A stretch of DNA of 64,000 nt from Bacteroidetes bacterium 43-16 (GCA_001897525.1 MKTB01000017.1:248001-312000), one strand, 5' to 3'; positions 35,007-62,751 are shown, counted from the stretch's first letter. The notes: generated from the sequence alone by a model not told the origin. Numbers and translations: made by a program.

Positions 35007-35039
35007 AACCCCGTTTGAGTAAATCGAACGGGGTTTTTT
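35007..35039 (+). terminator. his attenuator terminator
   Basis: AACCCCGTTTGAGTAAATCGAACGGGGTTTTTT; strong GC stem plus T-run directly upstream of hisG. Confidence 0.92.
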
Positions 35040-35098
35040 CTTTTTCTTCCGGGAATTCCTTTACCGTCTTCGGTTTGCTCAGACCCCAAACACAACTT

Positions 35099-35956
35099 AT
35101 GAGCAGACTAAAGATCGCCATCCAGAAAAAAGGCCGGCTAAACGAATCCTCCCTTTCCATACTCAGAGAATGCGGTATTGAGATCCCTAACGGGGCAGGG
35201 AAGCTGATTGCAGAATCATCCAACTTCCCGATCGATATCCTGTTCCTGCGCGACGATGATATCCCTCAATATGTACATCAGAAAGTAGCGGACCTGGGCA
35301 TAGTGGGCGAAAACGTGCTCATCGAATCGCGCAAAAAAGTGTCTATGCTTAAAAAACTGGGCATCGCCAAATGCAGGCTCAGCTTAGCCATTCCCAAAGA
35401 CATTCCCTATGAAGGCATCCGCTTTTTTCAGGATAAAACGATCGCCACCTCCTATCCTCAATTGCTGCAATCCTACCTGGACCGGCAAGCGATCCGGGCA
35501 CAGATCGAAGAGATCTCCGGGAGTGTGGAGATCGTTCCCGGCCTGGGTCTTGCAGCAGGCATTTGCGATATCGTCAGCAGCGGTTCCACCCTCTTCTCCA
35601 ATGGACTTAAAGAAGTAGAACTGGTCATGAAAAGCGAGGCCGTATTGATCGGTAGCGAACACCTGGAAGGGGAGAAAGCATTACTGCTGCAACAATTGCT
35701 CTTCCGCATCGATGCAGTCCTGTCCTCAAAAGGGAAGAAATACATCCTGCTCAATGCACCTAATGATAAGATCGATGCCATCGTCCGGATACTGCCCGGG
35801 ATGAAAAGCCCCACCATACTCCCCCTTGCCGCAAAAGGCTGGAGCAGCCTGCATTCCGTGATCGATGAAGACCAGTTTTGGGAACATATTGATGAATTGA
35901 AAAAAGCAGGTGCAGAAGGCATTTTAGTCGTCCCTATTGAAAAAATGATCCAATAA
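35099..35956 (+). CDS. hisG: ATP phosphoribosyltransferase (long form)
   Basis: Start MSRLKIAIQKKGRLNES; 'VADLGIVGENVLIE', 'EISGSVEIVPGLGLAAGICDIVSSGSTL'; track start at 35015 lies inside the terminator. Confidence 0.96.
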   Translation: MSRLKIAIQKKGRLNESSLSILRECGIEIPNGAGKLIAESSNFPIDILFLRDDDIPQYVHQKVADLGIVGENVLIESRKKVSMLKKLGIAKCRLSLAIPKDIPYEGIRFFQDKTIATSYPQLLQSYLDRQAIRAQIEEISGSVEIVPGLGLAAGICDIVSSGSTLFSNGLKEVELVMKSEAVLIGSEHLEGEKALLLQQLLFRIDAVLSSKGKKYILLNAPNDKIDAIVRILPGMKSPTILPLAAKGWSSLHSVIDEDQFWEHIDELKKAGAEGILVVPIEKMIQ

Positions 35957-35961
35957 AAACT

Positions 35962-37248
35962 ATGAAAACATACAACTCCCCCGATCGGGCAACCTTGAAA
36001 AGACTCTGTCAAAGGCCCGCGATCAAAACCGAAGACCTGGAACAGGCCGTCCGGAAGATCATGGACCGGGTAAAGTCCGGAGGCGACAAAGCCCTGAACG
36101 CATTAACCCTCGAATTGGACCAGGCAGATATTAAGGACCTGGAAGTTAAAGAAGCAGAAATAGCTGCCGCATTGGTGCAGGTGGTACCGGCACTGGCCTA
36201 TGCCATACAGGTAGCTGCGGCAAACATTGAAAAATTTCACCGTAGCCAGATAGTAACAGAAGCGCGTATAGAGACCAGCCCCGGAGTTTTCTGCTGGCGC
36301 AAGTCTGTACCGGTAGAAAAAGTAGGGATCTATATCCCCGGCGGATCAGCCCCCTTATTCTCTACCATACTCATGCTGGGCATCCCGGCACAACTGGCAG
36401 GATGCAACACGATCATTTTATGTACACCGCCCGATAAACAGGGCAATATAGACCCGGCGATCCTGTACACCGCTCATCTTTTAGGCATTAAAAACATCTA
36501 TAAAGCAGGCGGTGCGCAAGCTATAGCCGCTATGGCCTATGGCACCGAGACCATCCCTAAGGTGTATAAAATATTCGGTCCCGGCAATCAATATGTCACC
36601 AAAGCCAAAACCCTTTTACAAATAGAAGGCATGGCCATAGATATGCCTGCAGGCCCCAGCGAGCTGCTGATCATTGCCGATCAATATGCCGATCCCGATT
36701 TTGTAGCCGCCGATCTTCTATCACAGGCCGAGCACGGAGCAGACAGCCAGGTCGTGCTCTTGAGCAATAGCAGCCAGCTGATCCATAAAACCCTGGAAGC
36801 CCTGGTACAGCAACTGGAAAATCTTCCCCGGAAAGACATTGCAATTGCTGCCCTGGCCAACAGTATGGCCATACAATTGGACTCCATTGCGGCCTGTTTT
36901 GATTTCAGCAATGAGTATGCCCCCGAGCACCTGATCCTTGCACTGGAAAAACCGGAATTCTATACCGGGCAGATCATAAATGCAGGCTCTGTCTTTTTAG
37001 GAAAATATGCCTGCGAATCAGCCGGAGACTATGCCAGTGGTACCAATCATACACTACCTACCAATGGATTTGCCAAAAGCTACAGCGGCGTATCCTTAGA
37101 TAGCTTTTATAAAAAAATAACCTTTCAGAGCATCAGCGAAAAAGGCATTCAAAACATAGGCCCGGTCATAGAAACAATGGCCGAAGCCGAAGCATTATAT
37201 GCACATAAAAACGCAGTAAGCATCCGCTTAAAAAAACTACAAGCATGA
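35962..37248 (+). CDS. hisD: histidinol dehydrogenase
   Basis: 'VGIYIPGGSAPLFSTILMLGIPAQLAG', 'KIFGPGNQYVTKAK', 'DMPAGPSELLIIAD'. Confidence 0.97.
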   Translation: MKTYNSPDRATLKRLCQRPAIKTEDLEQAVRKIMDRVKSGGDKALNALTLELDQADIKDLEVKEAEIAAALVQVVPALAYAIQVAAANIEKFHRSQIVTEARIETSPGVFCWRKSVPVEKVGIYIPGGSAPLFSTILMLGIPAQLAGCNTIILCTPPDKQGNIDPAILYTAHLLGIKNIYKAGGAQAIAAMAYGTETIPKVYKIFGPGNQYVTKAKTLLQIEGMAIDMPAGPSELLIIADQYADPDFVAADLLSQAEHGADSQVVLLSNSSQLIHKTLEALVQQLENLPRKDIAIAALANSMAIQLDSIAACFDFSNEYAPEHLILALEKPEFYTGQIINAGSVFLGKYACESAGDYASGTNHTLPTNGFAKSYSGVSLDSFYKKITFQSISEKGIQNIGPVIETMAEAEALYAHKNAVSIRLKKLQA

Positions 37249-38273
37249 ATATAACAGCACTCATCCGGCCCAATATCCTCGCGCTGAAGCCCTATTCCAG
37301 TGCGCGAGACGAATACACAGGAGCAGAAGCACTCTTCCTCGATGCCAACGAAAATCCCTTTGGCCAATGGAACCGCTACCCGGATCCTTATCAAAAACAA
37401 CTAAAGCAAAAAATAGCCGCTTTAAAAAACCTGGATGCAAATGCCTTGTTTTTAGGCAATGGCAGTGATGAGATCATAGACCTCAGCTACCGGATATTTT
37501 GCGAACCGGGAAAGGATAAAGCCATTTGCCTGGGACCCACCTATGGCATGTATGAAGTGGCGGCACAGATCAATAATGTCACCCTCATCCAGGTGCCCCT
37601 TGATGCCGCATTTGATATTGACCTGCCTGCCTTGGAAGAGTATTGGGAAAGGACCGATATCAAACTGATGTTCCTTTGCTCCCCAAACAACCCCAGCGGG
37701 AATATATTGAGCGAAGAGCGCATCAGCACTATACTGGACCGTTTTAAAGGTATTGTCATCATTGACGAAGCCTATATCGATTTCTCCGGCACACTTTCCC
37801 GGGCTACACAGATAGGCAACTATCCCAAGCTGGTGGTAGTGCAAACCCTGTCCAAGGCCTGGGGTATGGCCGCATTAAGGATCGGCCTGGCCTGGATGAG
37901 CCCTGAGCTCCTGCAGTATTACAATAAAGTGAAGCCACCCTACAACATTAGCGCGGCCAACCAGCAGCTCGCCTTATCCATACTGGAGCAGGGCAATTTT
38001 GAACAAGAAATAAAGCTGCTTAAAACAGAGCAGGCCTGGCTGAGCCGGGAACTGAGCGCTATTACACAGATCAAAAAGGTGTATCCCTCTTCGGCCAATT
38101 TCATCCTGCTGGAGGTGGAAGATGCCCCTGCCTTGTATGATCAGTTGAGCGCACACAAAATAGTGGTCCGCAACCGGCATGGCATCATCCCCAATACCCT
38201 CCGCATCACCGTGGGCAGCCCCGGGCAAAATAAACAATTGATACAAACCCTTAAAACCATTTTCCATGCCTAA
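37245..38273 (+). CDS. hisC: histidinol-phosphate aminotransferase
   Basis: '[17 protein letters not shown]', '[10 protein letters not shown]', '[18 protein letters not shown]'. Confidence 0.97.
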
Positions 38274-39357
38274 AAAAGTTTTATTCATAGACCGTGACGG
38301 CACCATTATAGCAGAGCCCGAAGACTTCCAGATCGATGCCTTTGAGAAATTGAAGTTCCTGCCCCGGGCCATCAGCAGCCTGGCCAGGATTGTCCGGGAG
38401 CTGGATTTCGACCTGGTGATGGTGAGCAACCAGGATGGTCTGGGCACCGCATCCTTCCCTGAACCCACCTTCTGGCCCGTCCAGGATTTTATCCTCAATA
38501 CCTTAAAAGAAGAAGGCGTGGTATTCAAAGATATTTATATCGACCGCAGCTTTGAGGAAGAGCAGGCAGCCACCCGCAAACCCGGAACAGGTATGCTTTC
38601 CAAATACATTTACGGCGACTATGACCTGCAGGGATCTTTCGTGATCGGTGACCGCATGACCGATGTACAATTGGCCCAAAACCTGGGCGCGCAGTCTATC
38701 CTGATCAGTAGCCGGCCCAGTCCTGCTGCCGGTTTCACGACAACAAGCTGGGACGCTATTTACCGTTTCCTGAAAGGGCAGGATAGAACAGCCTATATAG
38801 AAAGAGCTACTGCAGAGACACAGATCAGCATCCGCTTAAACTTAGACCAGCCGGATGAAACCTATATAGATACCGGCTTAGCCTTCTTCGATCATATGCT
38901 GCACCAGGTAGCAAAACATGGAAATTTTGGCTTAAACATCTCCGTGAAAGGCGACCTGCAGGTAGATGAGCACCATACCATCGAAGATACCGCCCTGGCT
39001 TTGGGTAGCGCCTTTGCCCAGGCTTTAGGAGCTAAAAAAGGCATTGCCCGCTATGGCTTCCTCTTGCCCATGGACGATTGCCTGGCGCAGGTCGCTATAG
39101 ATTTCGGCGGCCGTCCCTGGCTGGTATGGGACCTGACTTTCCAAAGAGAAAAGATCGGAGCAGTGCCTACGGAAATGTTTGTACACTTTTTTAAATCCTT
39201 TAGCGATGCCGCACAATGCAACCTGAACATAAAGGCAGAGGGCAGCAACGAGCACCATAAAATAGAATCCGTATTTAAAGCCTTTGCCCGGGCACTGCAG
39301 ATGGCCTGCAGCCCCAACGGGCAATACAGCATTCCCAGCACAAAAGGTATATTATGA
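38266..39357 (+). CDS. hisB: bifunctional histidinol-phosphatase / imidazoleglycerol-phosphate dehydratase
   Basis: N-terminal HAD '[15 protein letters not shown]', C-terminal '[22 protein letters not shown]', '[16 protein letters not shown]'. Confidence 0.97.
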
Positions 39358-39932
39358 TAGCGATCTTAAAATACAATGCAGGCAATACCCGCTCCGTCCT
39401 TAATGCCCTCAATAGCTTGGGCTATGAGGCCTGCATCAGCGATGACCCGGTGCAGCTGCAAGCGGCCGATAAAGTCATCTTTCCCGGGGTGGGCGAGGCA
39501 GGTACTGCTATGGCTTACTTAAAAGCCCGCCAGCTCGACCAGGTGATAAGGGCATTAAAGCAGCCCGTACTCGGCATTTGCCTGGGGATGCAATTATTGT
39601 GCGCGCACTCAGAAGAAGGAGATACGGCAGGCATCGGCATTTTCGACAACCAGGTGAAAAGATTTCCACCGGGACTATTAGTGCCTCATATGGGCTGGAA
39701 CAACCTGGAAAATACAAGCGGTGCATTATTCAAAGACCTCGGGCAATCGGCCGACTTCTACTTTGTACATACATATTATGCTACCCAAGGTGTGGCAACG
39801 GTAGCGACCACAGATTATATACTACCCTTTAGCGCGGCACTGCAAAAAGACAATTTTTATGCCGTACAATTTCACCCGGAAAAGTCTGCCCAAACCGGGC
39901 TTACCTTACTTGAAAACTTTTTAGACCTATGA
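39354..39932 (+). CDS. hisH: imidazole glycerol phosphate synthase, glutaminase subunit
   Basis: '[13 protein letters not shown]', 'GICLGMQLL', 'QFHPEKS'. Confidence 0.96.
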
Positions 39933-40642
39933 GAATTATTCCTGCAATCGACCTCATCGAAGGTAAATGTGTGCGCTTGTCCAAAGGTGACTATAACACT
40001 AAAAAAATATACAATGAAGATCCCCTGGAAGTCGCTAAAGCTTTTGAAGCAGCAGGCATCAGGTACCTGCACCTTGTAGACCTGGATGCGGCAAAAACAA
40101 AAGTACTCACTCATGTCAATATACTGGAACGTATTGCCGCCAAAACCGGGCTGAACATTGACTTTGGCGGTGGAGTACAGACCAAAGCTGATGTAAAGAC
40201 CCTCCTGGATGCCGGTGCCGGTCAAGTCACACTGGGCAGTATAGCCGTCCGTAAACCCGTCATACTGTATGATTGTCTCCAGACCTTCGGTACAGATAAG
40301 ATCATACTGGGTGCCGACTGCCTGAACCGGAAAATAGCCACCAATGCCTGGGACCGGATAGAGGATATAGACATTATCAGCTTTATGAAGGAGAAAGTGA
40401 CCCAAGGCGTACTGTACGCCATCGTCACCGAGATCTCCAGGGATGGTATGCTGCAAGGTCCTGATGATACATTATACAATGACATACTCGACCAGGTGCC
40501 GCTTCGCCTTATCGCCAGCGGTGGCATCAGCAAGATGAGTGACCTGGATCAATTGCAAAGAACAGGATGCGAAGCTGCCATTATCGGGAAAGCCATCTAT
40601 GAACAGCGCATCACCTTAAAACAACTGGAAAGCTATGCTTAA
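39929..40642 (+). CDS. hisA: ProFAR isomerase
   Basis: '[22 protein letters not shown]', 'DFGGGVQT', '[13 protein letters not shown]'. Confidence 0.97.
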
Positions 40643-41387
40643 GAAAAGGATCATTCCCTGCCTGGACATCAACAATGGCAGGACCGTGAAAGGGATCAGG
40701 TTTGAAAACCTGGTGGATGCAGGCGACCCCGTTGCCCTGGCCAAAAGGTATATGGAAGAAGGAGCCGATGAACTGGTCTTCCTGGATATTACCGCTACCC
40801 ACGAGCGCAGGACAACCCTTACAGAATGGGTAAGCCTGGTAGCCGCTGCCATCAATATCCCCTTTACCGTTGGCGGCGGCATTCACTCCCTGGCTACCGC
40901 AGCCCGGGTGATTGAGGCCGGTGCAGACAAGCTCAGCATTAATTCCGCAGCCTTAGCAAACCCTGATTTGATCAGCAATATTGCCGCGCAGTTCGGCACA
41001 CAATGTGTCACCGTGGCCATAGATACCGATTATATAGACGGAACATGGAAAGTCTTTAGCCATGGCGGCAGGAAAGCCACCAAATGGAGCGCAGTAGACT
41101 GGGCAAAGGCAGCCGAGCAATGCGGGGCAGGGGAGATCCTGCTCACCTCCATGCAGGGCGATGGCACCCGCTTCGGTTTCTCCCTGGAGATTACCGAGGC
41201 AGTAGCCGCAGCCATCAATATCCCCGTCATAGCATCAGGTGGCGCAGGCCGCCCCGAAGACTTTGCACAGGTTTTTACACAAACCCGGGCTACGGGCGCT
41301 TTAGCCGCATCGGTCTTTCACTTTGGCAGCATAGCTATACCCGATCTCAAACAATACCTCAAATCAAAAAACATTTCCATAAGATGA
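40635..41387 (+). CDS. hisF: imidazole glycerol phosphate synthase, cyclase subunit
   Basis: '[55 protein letters not shown]'. Confidence 0.97.
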
Positions 41388-42001
41388 ACCCCATAAATTT
41401 CAGGATAGAAGACCTCAATTTTCAACCATCAGACGGGCTGGTACCGGTCATCGTGCAGGATGCCGTAAGCCTCCGGGTACTGATGCTGGGCTATATGAAC
41501 CGGGAAGCCTTGGCGCTAACCCTGGCAGGCGATAAAGTCGTCTTTTACAGTAGGAGCAGGCAAAGGCTCTGGATGAAAGGCGAAAGCTCGGGCCATTTCC
41601 TGTACTGGAAAAAGATACACCTGGACTGTGACCGCGACACCCTGCTGATACAAGCCCTGCCTCAAGGGCCTACCTGCCATACCGGGACCGATTCCTGCTT
41701 TGGCATGGATAATGCCGATGGCTTTATCTACCGGCTGGGCCAAACCATCGCTGAAAAGATCGATAGTAATGAGGTAGGCTCTTATACCAATGCACTTTAC
41801 CGGAAAGGCATCAATAAAGTGGCCCAGAAAGTAGGCGAGGAAGCCGTAGAGCTGGTCATAGAGGCCAAAGACAATAACGAATCATTGTTCCTGGGCGAAG
41901 CAGCCGACCTGCTGTACCACTACCTGGTGTTGCTCAAAGCTAAGGGTTATGCACTATCAGATGTGGAAGAAGTGCTCCGGTCGCGGAATGTGAGCCAGTA
42001 G
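41384..42001 (+). CDS. hisIE: bifunctional phosphoribosyl-AMP cyclohydrolase / phosphoribosyl-ATP diphosphatase
   Basis: Start [13 protein letters not shown] at ATGA overlap with hisF; 'GESSGHFLYWKKIHLDCDRDTLLIQALPQGPTCHTG', 'KVGEEAVELVIEAK'. Confidence 0.96.
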   Translation: MNPINFRIEDLNFQPSDGLVPVIVQDAVSLRVLMLGYMNREALALTLAGDKVVFYSRSRQRLWMKGESSGHFLYWKKIHLDCDRDTLLIQALPQGPTCHTGTDSCFGMDNADGFIYRLGQTIAEKIDSNEVGSYTNALYRKGINKVAQKVGEEAVELVIEAKDNNESLFLGEAADLLYHYLVLLKAKGYALSDVEEVLRSRNVSQ

Positions 42002-43757: not shown

Positions 43758-44492
43758 ATGAATCGCATCGCATCGCTCTACTACCTGGCTTTTGATACGG
43801 GGCTGAATGCAGCGATCACGTTTTTCATTTTCTTCCTCCTGTTATACTTTGGCGGCATTGCCCTTTACCGGGCAGCGCTTTACTTTTTGAAGCAATATTA
43901 TGGCTTCCATGCCATCCAGCACAACCTAAGAAAAGGACAGGTCGCTTTCGAGATCCGGCATTCACTGCTATCGATCCTGGTATTCAGCCTGCAGGCCATT
44001 CCTTTGCAATACCTGGTAGCGCAGGGCTATGCAGCCGTCAGTTTTAGCAATGCCTGGGTCTTGCTCTGGCAAATCCCCCTTCTGTTCCTCTGGAATGAGA
44101 TACATTTTTACCTCGTCCATGCACTGCTGCACCGCAAATGGCTGATGAAGCGCGTACACTTCCTGCACCATCGTTCCAAAGAGCCGACCCTGTTTTCGGT
44201 GTACAGTTTTCATTGGTTTGAGGCCTTCCTCCTGGGCACGGTCATTTTCCTGCCCATAACCCTGTATTCCTTTCACATTTTTGCGATCCTGAGCCTGCCC
44301 GTGCTGAGCATTGTATTGAACTTAATGGGGCATTCCAATCATGAAGGCCCTTCCGCTAAAGACCCGGAGCACATCAGCCGCTTTATCTTCCGGCACAGTA
44401 TGCACCACAAATGGAGCAATGGCAATTACGGGTTCATGCTGCCTTACCTGGACCGCTTATTCAACACCAAACTACCTAAAAACAAACATTAA
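43758..44492 (+). CDS. sterol desaturase / fatty acid hydroxylase family protein
   Basis: His clusters 'HFYLVHALLHRKW', 'HFLHHRSKEPT', 'FRHSMHHKWSNGNYGF'. Confidence 0.93.
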   Translation: MNRIASLYYLAFDTGLNAAITFFIFFLLLYFGGIALYRAALYFLKQYYGFHAIQHNLRKGQVAFEIRHSLLSILVFSLQAIPLQYLVAQGYAAVSFSNAWVLLWQIPLLFLWNEIHFYLVHALLHRKWLMKRVHFLHHRSKEPTLFSVYSFHWFEAFLLGTVIFLPITLYSFHIFAILSLPVLSIVLNLMGHSNHEGPSAKDPEHISRFIFRHSMHHKWSNGNYGFMLPYLDRLFNTKLPKNKH

Positions 44493-46369
44493 TGAGCCAT
44501 AAAGTATATATCAATGCCATCGGCAAACACTTACCCGGCGAGCCGGTGCCCAACGAAGCCATGGAAGATTACCTGGGCCTGATCAACGGTCAGCCCTCCA
44601 GAACCAAATCCAGGATGCTGCAGCAAAACGGGATCACTTCCCGGTACTATGCCATCAATAAAGAGCAGGCCTCTACCGACTCCGTTGCGGGCATGGCCGC
44701 CAAAGCCATCAAAGACACTCTGGCAAAAGCCAATGTGGCCGCAAAGCATATTGAACTACTGGCCGCAGGCACTACCCAGAACGATCTGCCCATACCCGGC
44801 TTTGCCAGTATGGTGCATGCCGGGACGGAGATCCCCGTTTGTGCGATCTCCAGCTTCCAGTCCGTATGTGCTGCCGGTATGATGGCCGTGAACCATGTGT
44901 TCCAGACCATCAAAAACGGGGAGGTGCAAAAGGCCGTTGCCTGTGCCGCAGATTTTCCCAGCCGCCTGTTTAAAGCCAAAAGATTTGCCCACCAGCAAGC
45001 CGTAGTGGCCCATGGCCTGGACCTGGAAACCGACTTCCTGCGCTGGATGCTCTCCGATGGTGCCGGGGCCTTCTACATGAGCCATCAGCCCAATGCTGAG
45101 CGCTTCAGCTTTGAGGTAGAATGGATCGATATACGTTCTCATGCCCACCTCTTTGAGCCCTGTATGTACACCGGTATGCGCAAAAATGCTGATGGCAGCA
45201 TGGGCACCAGTTGGATCGACTACGACAGCTTTACCGATGCAGATGCCGATGCGGCCCTCAACCTGCGCCAGGACATCCGCCTGGTCAACAACATCATTGC
45301 CCTGGGCGTACAGCATTTCTTCAACCTGGTAGATGCCGGGAAGATCGATCCCAAGCGTATGGACTGGCTGGTCGCACACTACTCCTCCGAGTATTTCAAA
45401 AATCCCATTGTCTCCCTGCTGGAAAAAGGCGGCCTGGTGATCCCGGAAGAAAAATGGTTTACCAACCTCCATACCAAAGGCAATACAGGGGCCGCTTCCA
45501 TATTCATTATGCTGGAAGAGCTGCTGAACGAGAAAGAACTGGTAGCCGGGCAGGAGATCCTCTGCATGGTGCCCGAAAGCGGGCGCTTCATCACCACATT
45601 CATGAAACTGAAAGTTATCGCCCCTACGGCAGAAAAAAGACAAGCCTCCATTGATGAGTCAGACGAGATCCTGGCACCGGATATCCGCATTGAGGGCAAT
45701 CCTACACAGGAGTGGCTCGTGCGCCAGCTCGTAGACACCTGGGTAGATTTTGAAACCCATTTAAGAAAAGTGCCTATTATACAAAAGATCTATAAGGGCA
45801 CCATCACCCTGGAAGATTATAAATTACTCTTACTGAACTTACGCCAGCAGGTGATCGACGGCTCGCAATGGATCGCCCGTGCGGCCTCTAATGTGAGCAT
45901 GGAGTATTTCGACATTCGTTCCTCCTTCATCTCTCATTCCAGGGATGAGCACCGCGACTACCAGATCCTGGAAAAGAACTATATCAATTGTGGGGGTAAT
46001 AAAGAAGACCTGTATACCGGGGAGAAAAATATAGGCAGTGAGGCCTTGAGCGCCTTTATGTTTCAAAGAGCCAGCCAGCCCAATCCTTTTGACCTCCTGG
46101 GCGGTATGTTCATCATCGAAGGGCTGGGCAACCGCATTGCAGGTAACTGGGGCAGGGCCATACAAGGACTGCTCAACCTGGACAATGACCAGGTATCCTT
46201 CTTTACCTATCACGAGACCAGCGACAGCAACGACAATCATTTCGAAAGATTTGAAAATGCCTTAAATTCAGACCTGCTGGACATGAATATGGCCAGGCGC
46301 ATTGCCAAGACCGCAAAAGTAGTGGCCAGCCTGTACCGGATGCAGTTAGCAGAAATCGGGAATTATTAA
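44492..46369 (+). CDS. 3-oxoacyl-ACP synthase III-like domain fused to a heme-oxygenase-like (iron-containing redox) domain
   Basis: N-terminal KAS III with active-site 'QSVCAAGMMAVNHVFQ', 'DWLVAHYSSEYF', 'GNTGAAS'; C-terminal about 225 aa 'HSRDEHRDYQ...HETSDSNDNHFERF' resembling HDO/TenA-like enzymes. Confidence 0.85.
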   Translation: MSHKVYINAIGKHLPGEPVPNEAMEDYLGLINGQPSRTKSRMLQQNGITSRYYAINKEQASTDSVAGMAAKAIKDTLAKANVAAKHIELLAAGTTQNDLPIPGFASMVHAGTEIPVCAISSFQSVCAAGMMAVNHVFQTIKNGEVQKAVACAADFPSRLFKAKRFAHQQAVVAHGLDLETDFLRWMLSDGAGAFYMSHQPNAERFSFEVEWIDIRSHAHLFEPCMYTGMRKNADGSMGTSWIDYDSFTDADADAALNLRQDIRLVNNIIALGVQHFFNLVDAGKIDPKRMDWLVAHYSSEYFKNPIVSLLEKGGLVIPEEKWFTNLHTKGNTGAASIFIMLEELLNEKELVAGQEILCMVPESGRFITTFMKLKVIAPTAEKRQASIDESDEILAPDIRIEGNPTQEWLVRQLVDTWVDFETHLRKVPIIQKIYKGTITLEDYKLLLLNLRQQVIDGSQWIARAASNVSMEYFDIRSSFISHSRDEHRDYQILEKNYINCGGNKEDLYTGEKNIGSEALSAFMFQRASQPNPFDLLGGMFIIEGLGNRIAGNWGRAIQGLLNLDNDQVSFFTYHETSDSNDNHFERFENALNSDLLDMNMARRIAKTAKVVASLYRMQLAEIGNY

Positions 46370-46381
46370 ACCAAAAACATC

Positions 46382-47269
46382 ATGTTGCACGATAAAGCCT
46401 ATTTTGAACAATTAGAGAACAATCCCCGCGATCCCAGCCACTGGCATGCCCTGTTCTGGGACAACAGTGTGCCCTTCGACCCCGATGCCAAAGCCGCCTT
46501 CCTGTACGATTCCGGGAGGAAGTCAAAGCAATACCTGTTGCCCGTAGTGCGGGTATTGGGGCGCTTCTCCATCATCCTGTTCCAGTTGTTGAAATTCATT
46601 ATTCCCAATGTGATCAATGCACCCAGGACCCTGCATAAATGCCTGTACTGGGGTATGAAATACTGGGTGTCGCCCGAAGCCAATTTTTTGATTCTCCGGC
46701 ATTTCTACCTGGGATCAGAAGTATTGCGCTTTATCAAAGACAATGTAAAAGGGGCGGAGCATATCCCCATGAATCCATTGAAACCCTTGTCGCTGAAAGA
46801 TATCAAAGACAATATGTTCCTGGAGCATGACCTTAACCTGTACAATTTTATCATTAACCTGAACAAGGCGATACAGGACCAGGGACTGAAGATAGAGAAA
46901 GCCGAACAGCCGAACTTTGATGCGATAGGTACGGGTAAGATTCCCTTCGAGGAGTTTCCCAACCGATGGACCAATTTCCTGGACCTGTCCAGCGCCATAG
47001 AGATCTTTACGCCCGTGTACCAGTTTTTCCTAACCGATAATGATTTCTGGCGCGCCTCCAATTCTTTGCAACTGGATGAGGTAATCGGCGTATACGCCGC
47101 CACGATCATGGATTGCCCCGAGAAGCTGGTGGCTTTGAACAATAAGCATCCCATGATACCTTTACCTACATACGGGGCGGGATTCCGGCTTACTTTACAC
47201 GGACTGTCTACAGAAGTATTGCATTACCTGATCAAATCGGCTAAAGTGGGGCAGGCGAAGCCTGATTAA
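46382..47269 (+). CDS. uncharacterised protein (DUF6999-like)
   Basis: ORF 13 nt after the KAS III fusion; no recognisable catalytic motif. Confidence 0.78.
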   Translation: MLHDKAYFEQLENNPRDPSHWHALFWDNSVPFDPDAKAAFLYDSGRKSKQYLLPVVRVLGRFSIILFQLLKFIIPNVINAPRTLHKCLYWGMKYWVSPEANFLILRHFYLGSEVLRFIKDNVKGAEHIPMNPLKPLSLKDIKDNMFLEHDLNLYNFIINLNKAIQDQGLKIEKAEQPNFDAIGTGKIPFEEFPNRWTNFLDLSSAIEIFTPVYQFFLTDNDFWRASNSLQLDEVIGVYAATIMDCPEKLVALNNKHPMIPLPTYGAGFRLTLHGLSTEVLHYLIKSAKVGQAKPD

Positions 47270-55795: not shown

Positions 55796-56200
55796 AGGCG
55801 ATGTTCCGGGCCTTACAAAGGGTTTTCCTGACCTTACAAGTGATGTTCCGGGCCTTACAAAGGGTTTTCCTGACCTTACAAGTGATGTTCCGGGCCTTAC
55901 AAAGGGTTTTCCTGACCTTACAAGCGATGTTCCGGACCTTACAAATGGTTTTCCTGACCTTACAAGTGATGTTCCGGACCTTACAAAGGGTTTTCCTGAC
56001 CTTACAAGCGATGTTCCGGGCCTTACAAAGGGTTTTCCTGGCCTTACAAGTGATGTTCCGGGCCTTACAAAGGATTTTCCTGGCCTTACAAGTGATGTTC
56101 CGGACCTTACAAAGGGTTTTCCTGACCTTACAAGTGATGTTCCGGACCTTACAAGCGATGTTCCGGACTCTACAAAGCGTTTTCCTAACCATACAAAAGA
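55796..56200. repeat. 21-bp/42-bp tandem repeat (minisatellite), about 18 half-units
   Basis: Alternating GATGTTCCGGRCCTTACAAAG and GGTTTTCCTGRCCTTACAAGT units; encodes DVPGLT/GFPDLT heptads in one frame. Confidence 0.95.
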
Positions 56201-58623: not shown

Positions 58624-60531
58624 TTACCTAAGTAAAGTTACATTGCCCGATTGCTTAAACGGCTTCCCTTCAATCGTAGTCGCCTGTATAGAATAGACAT
58701 AAACACCCACCGGCTGCGGCGTACCCTTAAAGTTACCATCCCAGCCATCATTCAATTCCTTAGTCTCATAGATCTTCTGGCCCCAACGGTTATAGATCGC
58801 AAAAGACTCCAAAGAAGCCACCCCCCTGATACTAGCTTTAAAACGCTCACTGTTCGGGTTAAACGCATTAGGCATACCCAAAACCGTTTCCTTCACATAC
58901 ACATCCACAGAGTCAGAAACCGTACAGCCATACTCCGTTTGAGCACTTACAAAATACCGCGTATTAACCGTGGGGTTCATTTTAGGATTAGCAATTTTCG
59001 TGTCATTCAGGCCCGCATCTGGAAACCAGCTGAAATAAACCGCATTCGTAGCCGGTTGCATAAAATAAGTTTCACCCGCATAAAGATGCACATAGTCCGG
59101 CAGCTCCAGTACCGCATTCGGATGAACCGTAACATGCACCATTTGCGTATCCGTACAGTTTTTATCACTCGTACCCACCAGTACATAATCAATGCTCGTT
59201 TCCGGTTTAGCCACCGGGTTACCAATCGTAGTACTACTGAGATACAGCCCGCTCGTCCATTTATAAGCCTGGGCACCCGATGCCATTAAAGGTATAGAAT
59301 CACCGGGACAAATGCTGAAATCCGTCTTTGCCAGCTGCAGGAAATTGCCCGGGTTCACGATCACATCCAGCGTATCCCTCAGGCTACAGGGGATCACACC
59401 AGTATAAGTTACCGTAAGCGTATACCTGCGGCTCTCATCTGCCGAGAACCATACATTAGGCTGATCCGTCGCATTCAGGTTATTAGAAGGAGACCAGCTA
59501 TACGTATAACTATTATTATGAGGCAAAGTATAAGATTCAAAAGCCACAGAATCATACTGGCATACGATCAGCGAATCCGGCATCATGATTTTTACCGGCT
59601 TCGGTACTACCGTAACCACAGTAGTGAGTATACTGTCACACCCGTTGATAGATTTAAGCGTAGTATCATAGATACCCGCCACCTTAATAAAAGTATCAAA
59701 ATAAGGGATAGAATCCCCGTCACAGATATAATGGAAAGAAGAATCACTGGTCGGGTTCACCACCAGGTTAAAGGTTGCCTTCACCCTCAGGCAAGGAGTA
59801 TTCATGTTAAACTCACAAGTATAAGTACCATTATGATTAGCCGGGTTTGCATTCACAATATCCACAAAACTATCCGTCGTCACCAGCGTATTAGGATGCG
59901 TCCACTGGAAATTAAAAAAAGTATTATTCGGGTTCTGCAAAGGAAGACTCATCCTGAAATTATTACCCTGGCATACCACACCATTGATATGTACCGGCAC
60001 ATATTCCGGAACAATCGTAATATTATCCACCAGCGTGCCCAGGGTACTGCTCGTATTAGTATTGGTAAATTCTATAGTTACCGTATTGCCCGTAGCAGTG
60101 AAAGAGTCCAGCGCACAGAGCCAGGTAAAGGCAGCATTGGCAGAAGTATCCGTCCGGTTCACATATACCGTAGCCCCGTCATAAATTTTCACATTGATAT
60201 AATTAGGATTAGGCGCAGCACCATTGCCCGTCCTCCTGCTCCTTAAATAAGAAAAATAATACTTCACACCCGGAGCTACCGCGATATTAGTTTGCCTTAA
60301 GTTGGAAGCCGCATCGATCTCCGCTACAATATTAGTCGTGGAAGTGCCGCCATAAGTACTTTCCGGGTAGTTGGCCTCAATAGAAGTAGCCGGTGCTACA
60401 AAAGTCCATTGATTAGCCGGCTGGACACTAAAGTCCCCGTTCTGGATAAGATTTTGTGCCATTGCTTTACCAAAAGGTAAAAAGAGGACAAGAGCAGCAA
60501 GGCAGGCTGTAAGTTTGATTGCTTTTATCAT
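58624..60531 (-). CDS. secreted protein with gliding-motility-associated (CHU_C / T9SS type B) C-terminal domain
   Basis: Signal peptide; C-terminal 'LGMPNAFNPNSERFKASIRGVASLESFAIYNRWGQKIYETKELNDGWDGNFKGTPQPVGVYVYSIQATTIEGKPFKQSGNVTLLR'. Confidence 0.95.
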   Translation of the reverse strand: MIKAIKLTACLAALVLFLPFGKAMAQNLIQNGDFSVQPANQWTFVAPATSIEANYPESTYGGTSTTNIVAEIDAASNLRQTNIAVAPGVKYYFSYLRSRRTGNGAAPNPNYINVKIYDGATVYVNRTDTSANAAFTWLCALDSFTATGNTVTIEFTNTNTSSTLGTLVDNITIVPEYVPVHINGVVCQGNNFRMSLPLQNPNNTFFNFQWTHPNTLVTTDSFVDIVNANPANHNGTYTCEFNMNTPCLRVKATFNLVVNPTSDSSFHYICDGDSIPYFDTFIKVAGIYDTTLKSINGCDSILTTVVTVVPKPVKIMMPDSLIVCQYDSVAFESYTLPHNNSYTYSWSPSNNLNATDQPNVWFSADESRRYTLTVTYTGVIPCSLRDTLDVIVNPGNFLQLAKTDFSICPGDSIPLMASGAQAYKWTSGLYLSSTTIGNPVAKPETSIDYVLVGTSDKNCTDTQMVHVTVHPNAVLELPDYVHLYAGETYFMQPATNAVYFSWFPDAGLNDTKIANPKMNPTVNTRYFVSAQTEYGCTVSDSVDVYVKETVLGMPNAFNPNSERFKASIRGVASLESFAIYNRWGQKIYETKELNDGWDGNFKGTPQPVGVYVYSIQATTIEGKPFKQSGNVTLLR

Positions 60532-60694
60532 TTGATTTATATTCAGGATAAAAAAAGGGATTACATCAGATCAAGGTTCACATGAAGAATAGACAGTATA
60601 AATAGTGCTTTTAGTTGGTGCTGAACGCAGCATGGCCAACAATATAAAGCCTGTTGAGATATTTAAATAAACAATCATATTATCAAGTATAAAA

Positions 60695-60729
60695 AAAGCT
60701 GCCGGAATATTTAATATTCCGGCAGCTTT
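60695..60729 (-). terminator. terminator hairpin downstream of 60748 gene
   Basis: AAAGCTGCCGGAATATTtaATATTCCGGCAGCTTT (perfect). Confidence 0.85.
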
Positions 60730-60747
60730 CTATTCGATAAATTTTTA

Positions 60748-62751
60748 TTACCTGATCAAGGTCACATTCCCCGTTTTTTGGAAAGGTTTACCTTCAACCG
60801 TAGTAGCATTTATTTTATACACATATACACCTGCAGGTTGAGCCGTGCCTTTGAAGAGACCATCCCATCCCTGGTTCAGCGCTTTCGTTTCATAAACCAG
60901 TTGACCCCATCTGTTGTATATTTCGAACGATTCGATAGATGCCAGGCCCCTGATGCTTACTTTAAATTGCTCATAATTAGGATTAAAAGCATTCGGCATA
61001 TCCAGTACAGTTTCTTTTACATAAACATCTACAGAGTCAGTAACCGAACAACCGAATTCCGTTTTCGCCGTTACAAAATAACGGGTGTTTACAGTCGGGT
61101 TCATAATCGGATTAGCGATCAGGTGATTGTTCAAGCCGGCAACAGGGAACCAGTTAAAATAAACCGCATTAGTACCCGGTTGCATAAAGTACGATTCACC
61201 AGGATAAATATTCACATAATCCGGCAGTTGCAATACCGCATTCGGGTGCACCGTAACCAGTACTTTCTGCGTATCCGTACAGTTTTTAAGGCTGGTACCG
61301 ATCAAAGTATATTCAGTAGTCGTTTCCACTTTCGCTATAGGATTAGCGATATTAGGATTGTTCAGGTATAAAGCAGGAGACCATTTGTAAGTATTAGCCC
61401 CGCTTGCATTCAGCTGAACAGAATCTCCCGAGCAAATGGCAAACTGCGTGATAGGTACTTCCAGGAAATCTCCCGGGTTAACAATAATATCTATCGTATC
61501 CCTGAGACTACATGGGATCACATCCGTCTTAGTCACCGTTAAAGTATACCTTCTGCTCTGATCTGCAAAAAACCATACATTAGGCTGATCTGTAGTATTC
61601 AGGTTTGTAGAAGGATTCCAGCTATACGTATACCCGGCATTATAAGGCAAAGTATTTGATTCCAATGCTACCGAATCATATTGGCAGACAATCAGAGAAT
61701 CCAGCATTTCAATTTTTACCGGCCTGGTTACCACATGCAATGTTGTCGTGATCAAGCTGTCACACCCGTTTATGGTCGTATACATAGAATCATAGTCACC
61801 GGCAATTTTGCGGTAAGTACCATATATATCTATAGAATCACCTTCACAGATATATTCAGTCAGTTCAGTATGATAAGTCGGGTTAATAACCACCTCTATC
61901 TGTTCTGTACAAGTATCAAAATTACCATTCGCCAAAGTAGCGATCGCATCTACAGAATAAGTGTAAGTACCCTGAGTGAGTCCTGTAATCACCAGGTTCT
62001 TCTGAGTAGAAGTAAATCCTGCAGGTCCGGTCCATACATAATTATATACATAAGAAGTATCGTTAGAGTTAGCCAGGTTAATTTTCAGCGTATCATTATC
62101 ACACACCGGGGAATTGCTGGTCAGCGTTACCCCGCAAGTAATGATAGAACAGTCCGTAGTTGCCGTACCTGCCGTCTGAGAGAACACGATATTACCCGCC
62201 TGGTTACTGAAGTTCGTCATGAGCAATATGTAGTACTCACCCGTTTGGGCCGGAGGAGGAGTAGTTGCACAACCCGTACCAGTTCCGGTACCGCCGGGAA
62301 GTCCGATACCAATGATCTCCTGCACACCACCGCCTGCATAAGAGCTTTGTATCGCCATCTGTCCGCCACTGATAGCAGAACAGCCGGCCGCAAGACTGTT
62401 AAAAGGTCCCCAGAAGGCAAAATCCACATCCGTGCCGCCACCAGCTCCGTTATATTGGTTCAGGCTGATCTGCATCGTTCCCGGGTTAGCTATTTTCATA
62501 TAATACCATACCGCATTAGGCTGCGTAGACAAGCATGCATAGCCTAGTCCCGGAGGAGCCGCAGCTCCGTTGGTAATATTAGGGAAGTTATAAGTTGTTC
62601 CCGTACAGAAGGGAATAGCATCTGCACAACTGGTACCCGTAGGAGTCGGCTGAGCAAAAGCTTCGGTAGTCGCCAGGGTTCCAAACAGGGAAACAAGCGC
62701 AAAACAACTGGCCTTAATTGTTGAGATTATATTTTTCAAATCGGTTATCAT
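60748..62751 (-). CDS. secreted protein with gliding-motility-associated C-terminal domain, paralogue of the preceding gene
   Basis: C-terminal half closely resembles that of 58624-60531; divergent N-terminal domain. Confidence 0.95.
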   Translation of the reverse strand: MITDLKNIISTIKASCFALVSLFGTLATTEAFAQPTPTGTSCADAIPFCTGTTYNFPNITNGAAAPPGLGYACLSTQPNAVWYYMKIANPGTMQISLNQYNGAGGGTDVDFAFWGPFNSLAAGCSAISGGQMAIQSSYAGGGVQEIIGIGLPGGTGTGTGCATTPPPAQTGEYYILLMTNFSNQAGNIVFSQTAGTATTDCSIITCGVTLTSNSPVCDNDTLKINLANSNDTSYVYNYVWTGPAGFTSTQKNLVITGLTQGTYTYSVDAIATLANGNFDTCTEQIEVVINPTYHTELTEYICEGDSIDIYGTYRKIAGDYDSMYTTINGCDSLITTTLHVVTRPVKIEMLDSLIVCQYDSVALESNTLPYNAGYTYSWNPSTNLNTTDQPNVWFFADQSRRYTLTVTKTDVIPCSLRDTIDIIVNPGDFLEVPITQFAICSGDSVQLNASGANTYKWSPALYLNNPNIANPIAKVETTTEYTLIGTSLKNCTDTQKVLVTVHPNAVLQLPDYVNIYPGESYFMQPGTNAVYFNWFPVAGLNNHLIANPIMNPTVNTRYFVTAKTEFGCSVTDSVDVYVKETVLDMPNAFNPNYEQFKVSIRGLASIESFEIYNRWGQLVYETKALNQGWDGLFKGTAQPAGVYVYKINATTVEGKPFQKTGNVTLIR

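Follow-up and report, generated by a model that had tools for sequence, protein, structure and literature searches.

In the genome of Bacteroidetes bacterium 43-16, we found a compact operon in which one polypeptide couples a C–C-bond-forming enzyme of the cyclohexanedione/resorcinol type with a domain of the O2-activating type. Three ORFs on the same (+) strand of the window (the whole stretch of 64,000 nucleotides that was analysed), at positions 43758-47269, encode a fatty acid hydroxylase-like protein, a ketosynthase (KS) fused to a heme-oxygenase-like (HDO) domain, and a DUF6999 protein (Table 1). We propose, with a probability of roughly 0.4, that this is a horizontally spread lipid-biosynthesis operon the product of which would be, by analogy with related systems, a hydroxylated dialkylresorcinol- or cyclohexanedione-type lipid. 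It forms a minimal two- to three-gene unit that is widely conserved, occurring in at least several hundred genomes, yet apparently undescribed. An initial examination of the DNA made without database searches (the sequence-only reading) had noted that no characterised pathway with this fusion is known to it; in agreement, the open-licence literature yielded neither a paper on DUF6999 or on a ketosynthase fused to a heme-oxygenase-like domain nor an assignment of the operon to a known product.

Table 1 Features of the operon in the window
Feature	Position	Strand	Description
Fatty-acid hydroxylase / sterol-desaturase family membrane protein	43758..44492	+	244 aa; PF04116; optional operon gene 1
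Ketosynthase domain of the fusion	44492..45619	+	about residues 1-376; C126-H296-N331; by sequence, StlD/DarB sister clade
Heme-oxygenase-like metal-oxidase-type domain of the fusion	45647..46369	+	residues 386-625; predicted fold, putative ligands
DUF6999 protein	46382..47269	+	295 aa; PF22523; all-helical (predicted); obligatory fusion partner

Re-derived coordinates confirm that the operon is coupled: the hydroxylase and fusion ORFs overlap at TAATG (44490-44494), the hydroxylase TAA occupying 44490-44492 and the fusion ATG 44492-44494, and the third gene lies close behind the fusion, its start codon being separated from the fusion's stop by 12 nt. That gene, unnamed at first, is Pfam DUF6999 (PF22523). 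The fusion ORF (44492-46369) is one intact frame of 625 codons, in which all motifs picked out by the sequence-only reading were found, namely QSVCAAG (C126), AHYSSE (H296), GNTGAAS (N331), SHSRDEHRDY, and HETSDSNDNHFERF. A scan for promoters and terminators gave nothing better than shuffled sequences. The fusion architecture is real, because 83 of the 84 loci described below keep it in a single frame and because dN/dS, calculated for close pairs, is about 0.01-0.10 in the KS and HDO domains alike; a frameshift, an assembly artefact, or a chance fusion is thus ruled out. Purifying selection acts strongly on both domains, which are, therefore, functional proteins.

The KS part had been taken for KAS III. 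It is indeed a ketosynthase with an intact C-H-N triad (C126, H296, and N331 are invariant in all 83 intact fusions), but not a generic KAS III. Residues 5-376 are closest to the NCBIfam StlD/DarB model NF005293 (395.6 bits, under the cut-off of 450); they score 352.9 bits with the DarB model NF053539 (cut-off 550, likewise not reached) and only 79.4 and 63.4 bits with KAS III models (cut-offs 249 and 292.1, neither reached), which rules out a housekeeping KAS III (FabH). The only strong PDB match is StlD (5gk0, E=7e-76), with the whole domain aligned, and residues R184, S188, C224, S298, S299, and E362 are common to DarB and absent from FabH. Residue E154 of StlD was dropped as a diagnostic of cyclisation, as FabH is also acidic at that position. 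In a maximum-likelihood tree, a 100/100 branch of length 0.76 splits the fused ketosynthases, which form a clade with unfused or plasmid relatives of Pseudoalteromonas and Nostoc, from DarB and StlD. Because of this branch we place the KS domain, by its sequence, as a sister clade of StlD/DarB and not as a DarB. It has in common with StlD/DarB the fold, the catalytic triad, family-specific residues and, probably, fatty-acid-derived substrates, but it stands outside their clade and below both curated cut-offs, is fused to an oxygenase domain, and has no DarA at its locus. Whereas the kinship favours cyclised diketone/resorcinol chemistry over linear ketones or alkenes, the scores and the long branch mean that the ring-closing chemistry may differ.

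StlD/DarB make 1,3-cyclohexanediones, which DarA then aromatises to dialkylresorcinols (PMC3992019, PMC3949708, PMC4414361), a chemistry credited to Fuchs 2013 as cited in PMC3992019 and PMC4414361. The DarA/DarB dialkylresorcinol (flexirubin) pathway, which is also typical of Bacteroidota (PMC3992019), resembles the operon in combining a ketosynthase relative with an oxidising partner. DarA, however, is a separate flavodoxin-like aromatase, while the oxidising partner in the operon is a fused metal-type domain accompanied by DUF6999 and an optional hydroxylase. The window's genome carries a true DarB beside a DarA-like gene on another contig (L040 9495-11562, C33), where inspection of 20 kb by eye revealed no aryl-polyene genes; the fusion is, therefore, not simply the resorcinol route of this organism. 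Furthermore, no DarA was found at any fusion locus, and DarA is absent genome-wide from two of four fusion-bearing genomes, which rules out aromatisation by a clustered DarA and fits the fused domain as the aromatising partner.

AlphaFold2, run on an alignment with 80 homologues, modelled the C-terminal 240 residues as a confident helical bundle (pLDDT 90.3) with 3dde, CADD, TenA, UndA, and heme oxygenases as the top PDB fold matches (E 4e-6 to 6e-4; Foldseek TMq 0.79 for 3dde, 0.75 for CtCADD, and 0.64 for UndA). The score with PF14518 is 27.3 bits, just below the gathering cut-off of 28.9. As had been proposed from its motifs, the domain is thus predicted to have the seven-helix heme-oxygenase fold. 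In the alignment, the putative ligands E486, D489, E543, H574, D578, and H583, plus H482, are invariant (81/81), and all seven are kept in sequences down to 40% identity. The α2 residue E543 and the α3 triplet H574-D578-H583 are present as in O2-activating HDOs; α3 reads H-x3-D-x2-H in most homologues and H-x3-D-x4-H, owing to a two-residue insertion, in the window and its near relatives. It is α1 that deviates. Over a stretch aligned gap-free between conserved anchors, it reads H482-x3-E486-x2-D489, so that the position of the canonical His, found as E-x2-H in canonical relatives from Vibrio and Pseudoalteromonas and in 3dde, is Asp in 81 of 81 sequences, and an invariant His lies one turn earlier, four residues before E486.

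The fusion consequently falls short, by the α1 His, of the full HDO motif (E-H in α1, E in α2, H-D/E-H in α3). In a survey of HDO groups, ~85% of the groups have the motif E-H-X-H-D/E-H, and its authors argue that HDOs with deviating motifs possibly have new chemistry (PMC11363339); given the Asp in α1, metal content and reaction may, therefore, differ from those of UndA. The sequence-only reading had likened the His/Glu/Asp clusters to HDO metal ligands, which holds for α2 and α3, but not for α1, where the domain is unlike UndA/CADD; this deviation apart, structure prediction and the ligand check turned up neither another fold nor a missing site. In comparison with UndA, CADD, SznF, and BesC, the domain has the predicted fold, the α2 Glu, and the α3 H/D/H pattern in common, but differs in α1 and in being tethered to a ketosynthase, a fusion absent from the HDO review PMC13108848. 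As a separate observation, two gammaproteobacterial plasmid loci (L124 5834-9437 and L125 5838-9406) contain a cluster of a thermostable hemolysin, an AMP-binding protein, an HDO, and an SDR that adjoins a two-component system; 3dde is the nearest solved HDO.

The first gene of the operon belongs to the fatty acid hydroxylase superfamily PF04116 (79.3 bits, cut-off 31), as the sequence-only reading had suggested, and has its full histidine boxes (H121/H125, H134/H137/H138, H192, and H213/H216/H217), which are invariant in 61 of 61 homologues at the loci. Its score with the model of the ornithine-lipid hydroxylase OlsE, a member of the same superfamily, is only 18.7 bits (cut-off 475). The hydroxylase is present in 57 of the 76 loci that have enough upstream sequence, and a second hydroxylase is found at two Sinomicrobium loci. 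Two lineages have a P450 instead, which directly precedes the fusion in a Neomarinimicrobiota MAG and is located upstream of it in a Nostoc plasmid; the slot, therefore, looks like an oxygenation step.

DUF6999 matches PF22523 with 397.9 bits (cut-off 27). Its model is confident (pLDDT 89.2), but its fold has no PDB match better than E=2.5, its sequence has no PDB match, and hhalign gave a probability of 0.2% for a relationship to the HDO domain, which rules out a second, degenerate HDO. Conservation of H85, R106-H107, H149-D150, E207, D221, H256, and H273 suggests an active site. DUF6999 lies downstream of the fusion in 82 of 84 loci, sometimes with one gene between; the contigs of the other two end. 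It is thus the constant, obligatory partner of the fusion, and the hydroxylase can be absent or replaced. The operon gives a testable functional context to this family, which is without an assigned function or a PDB structural relative.

The sample behind these counts was drawn as follows. Screening 85,462 species genomes yielded at least 375 relatives; the 80 that were kept, together with the loci of the window and of three further genomes, make up 84 loci. As these were gathered by HDO similarity, the sample is biased towards fused forms. The 80 relatives are mostly from Bacteroidota, with single Neomarinimicrobiota, Chlorobiales, and Kapaibacterium MAGs. Among 249 genomes searched in the taxonomic order of the window's genome, only that of the window gave a match spanning the fusion, all other strong matches covering the ketosynthase part only. 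The oxygenase domain occurs in 4 of 398 Bacteroidota genomes, each time within a fusion-length frame, and a DUF6999 search in a draw of equal size returned the same four genomes and one weak match. The neighbourhood survey shows that the fusion and DUF6999 are conserved together, and every neighbour apart from DUF6999 and the hydroxylase is limited to at most 10 of the 84 loci, which rules out GtrA, TraB/GumN, and the his operon as parts of the pathway. The window's gene groups closely with those of Sphingobacterium and Croceitalea, which, together with the patchy presence, points to horizontal spread of the operon. In four loci (L083, L084, L094, L117), the fusion is immediately followed by a gene for a fatty-acid-desaturase-like protein, which precedes DUF6999 where the latter is visible. 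In a Nostoc flagelliforme plasmid (L123 8605-11317), the KS-HDO gene appears frameshifted and the DUF6999 ORF is shortened, so this copy is probably decaying.

Unfused relatives place the two domains in one pathway. In Pseudoalteromonas sp. THAF3, three separate genes in a row encode a ketosynthase (366 aa), an HDO protein (226 aa, 40-42% identical), and DUF6999, behind a 188-aa membrane-type protein without a Pfam match; from this order it follows that both domains act in the same pathway and that they have been fused. A more distant Bacteroidota locus (G460, L130 1404-5132) lacks an HDO but has a related, distant ketosynthase beside a divergent DUF6999, together with a flavin monooxygenase of the FMO type. 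Because this one locus has both proteins, ketosynthase and DUF6999 may be the older core.

Combining these findings, we propose a mechanism in four steps that are deduced from the enzyme families, the direct observation being the anatomy of the operon. In the first step, C126 would take an acyl or enoyl thioester and condense it with a β-ketoacyl-ACP of normal fatty-acid synthesis, and a Michael and Claisen closure of the StlD/DarB type would give a 2,5-dialkyl-cyclohexane-1,3-dione with a 4-carboxyl. In the second, the tethered HDO-like domain, using two metal ions (or one) and O2, would oxidise the KS product before it escapes. As first formed by DarB, the ring has its carboxyl beside a ketone, and the adjacent carbon, which bears an alkyl group, holds a hydrogen. 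Fatty acids oxidised by UndA lose their carboxyl, and one of the two candidate mechanisms is abstraction of the β-hydrogen (PMC13108848); applied to a cyclohexanedione acid, this chemistry would give a resorcinol in one step. Of the possible roles of the fused domain, the likeliest is, by this analogy, to decarboxylate and aromatise the cyclohexanedione acid without DarA: an UndA-like removal of the hydrogen β to the carboxylate, accompanied by release of CO2, would yield the resorcinol directly. In the third step, the membrane hydroxylase where present, or the P450 instead, would hydroxylate the ring or an alkyl chain. In the fourth, DUF6999 would perform an essential step of the same pathway, e.g. 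off-loading, binding, or further conversion. The different α1 ligands leave room for other outcomes, and our confidence in this mechanism is, therefore, tempered. If it is correct, a single protein would lead to oxidised aromatic lipids without the need for a flavin, and HDO chemistry would be extended to an altered metal site. Somewhat tentatively, (i) the bifunctional KS-oxygenase, (ii) the altered HDO site H482-x3-E486-x2-D489, and (iii) the new fold predicted for DUF6999 could together define an undescribed class of lipid pathway, with a scaffold not yet known.

The same α1 ligand set can be read differently. The HDO domain might hydroxylate or cleave the cyclohexanedione ring with no aromatisation, and DUF6999 might then complete a quinone, tropone, or ring-contracted lipid scaffold. 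The unusual ligands, which suggest chemistry unlike that of known HDOs (cf. PMC11363339), and the obligatory presence of DUF6999 without a known fold are consistent with such a route, but the argument proceeds from a deviation from known motifs, and we consider the route rather unlikely. Also unlikely is the proposal of the sequence-only reading, according to which the KS would make a linear β-keto acid or β-diketone, the HDO domain would decarboxylate it oxidatively to a ketone, enone, or alkene in the manner of UndA, and the hydroxylase would modify the chain. The intact KS triad, the predicted resemblance to the fatty acid-decarboxylating UndA (PMC13108848), and the lack of a cyclase or aromatase gene alongside the fusion agree with a linear product; however, the KS is specifically related to the ring-forming StlD/DarB and not to linear condensing enzymes, and an OleBCD-type partner set was not seen at the 84 loci, since only the hydroxylase and DUF6999 recur widely. 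That the C-terminal domain is non-catalytic, i.e. structural, redox-sensing, or peroxide-handling and shielding the ketosynthase, as suggested for the HDO-like stress-protective protein DtpC (PMC13232832), would accord with the lost α1 His and the PF14518 score just under its cut-off, but is improbable given the invariance of all seven candidate ligands at such low identity and dN/dS, and given that DtpC itself needs canonical ligands and adjoins a catalase rather than a ketosynthase.

Three other features of the window were recorded. Upstream of the operon, at 35015-42001, lies a complete-looking histidine biosynthesis operon that includes fused HisB-like and HisIE-like ORFs, the names being given from reading of the sequence only. 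At 55798-56197, a 42-bp unit is repeated in tandem 8.5 times (95% matches); several frames across the array are open and repeat VPGLTKGFPDLTSD-like units. Finally, positions 58624-62751 encode two adjacent, similar large secreted proteins of 635 and 667 aa with gliding-associated-type C-termini, which are probably the result of a duplication.
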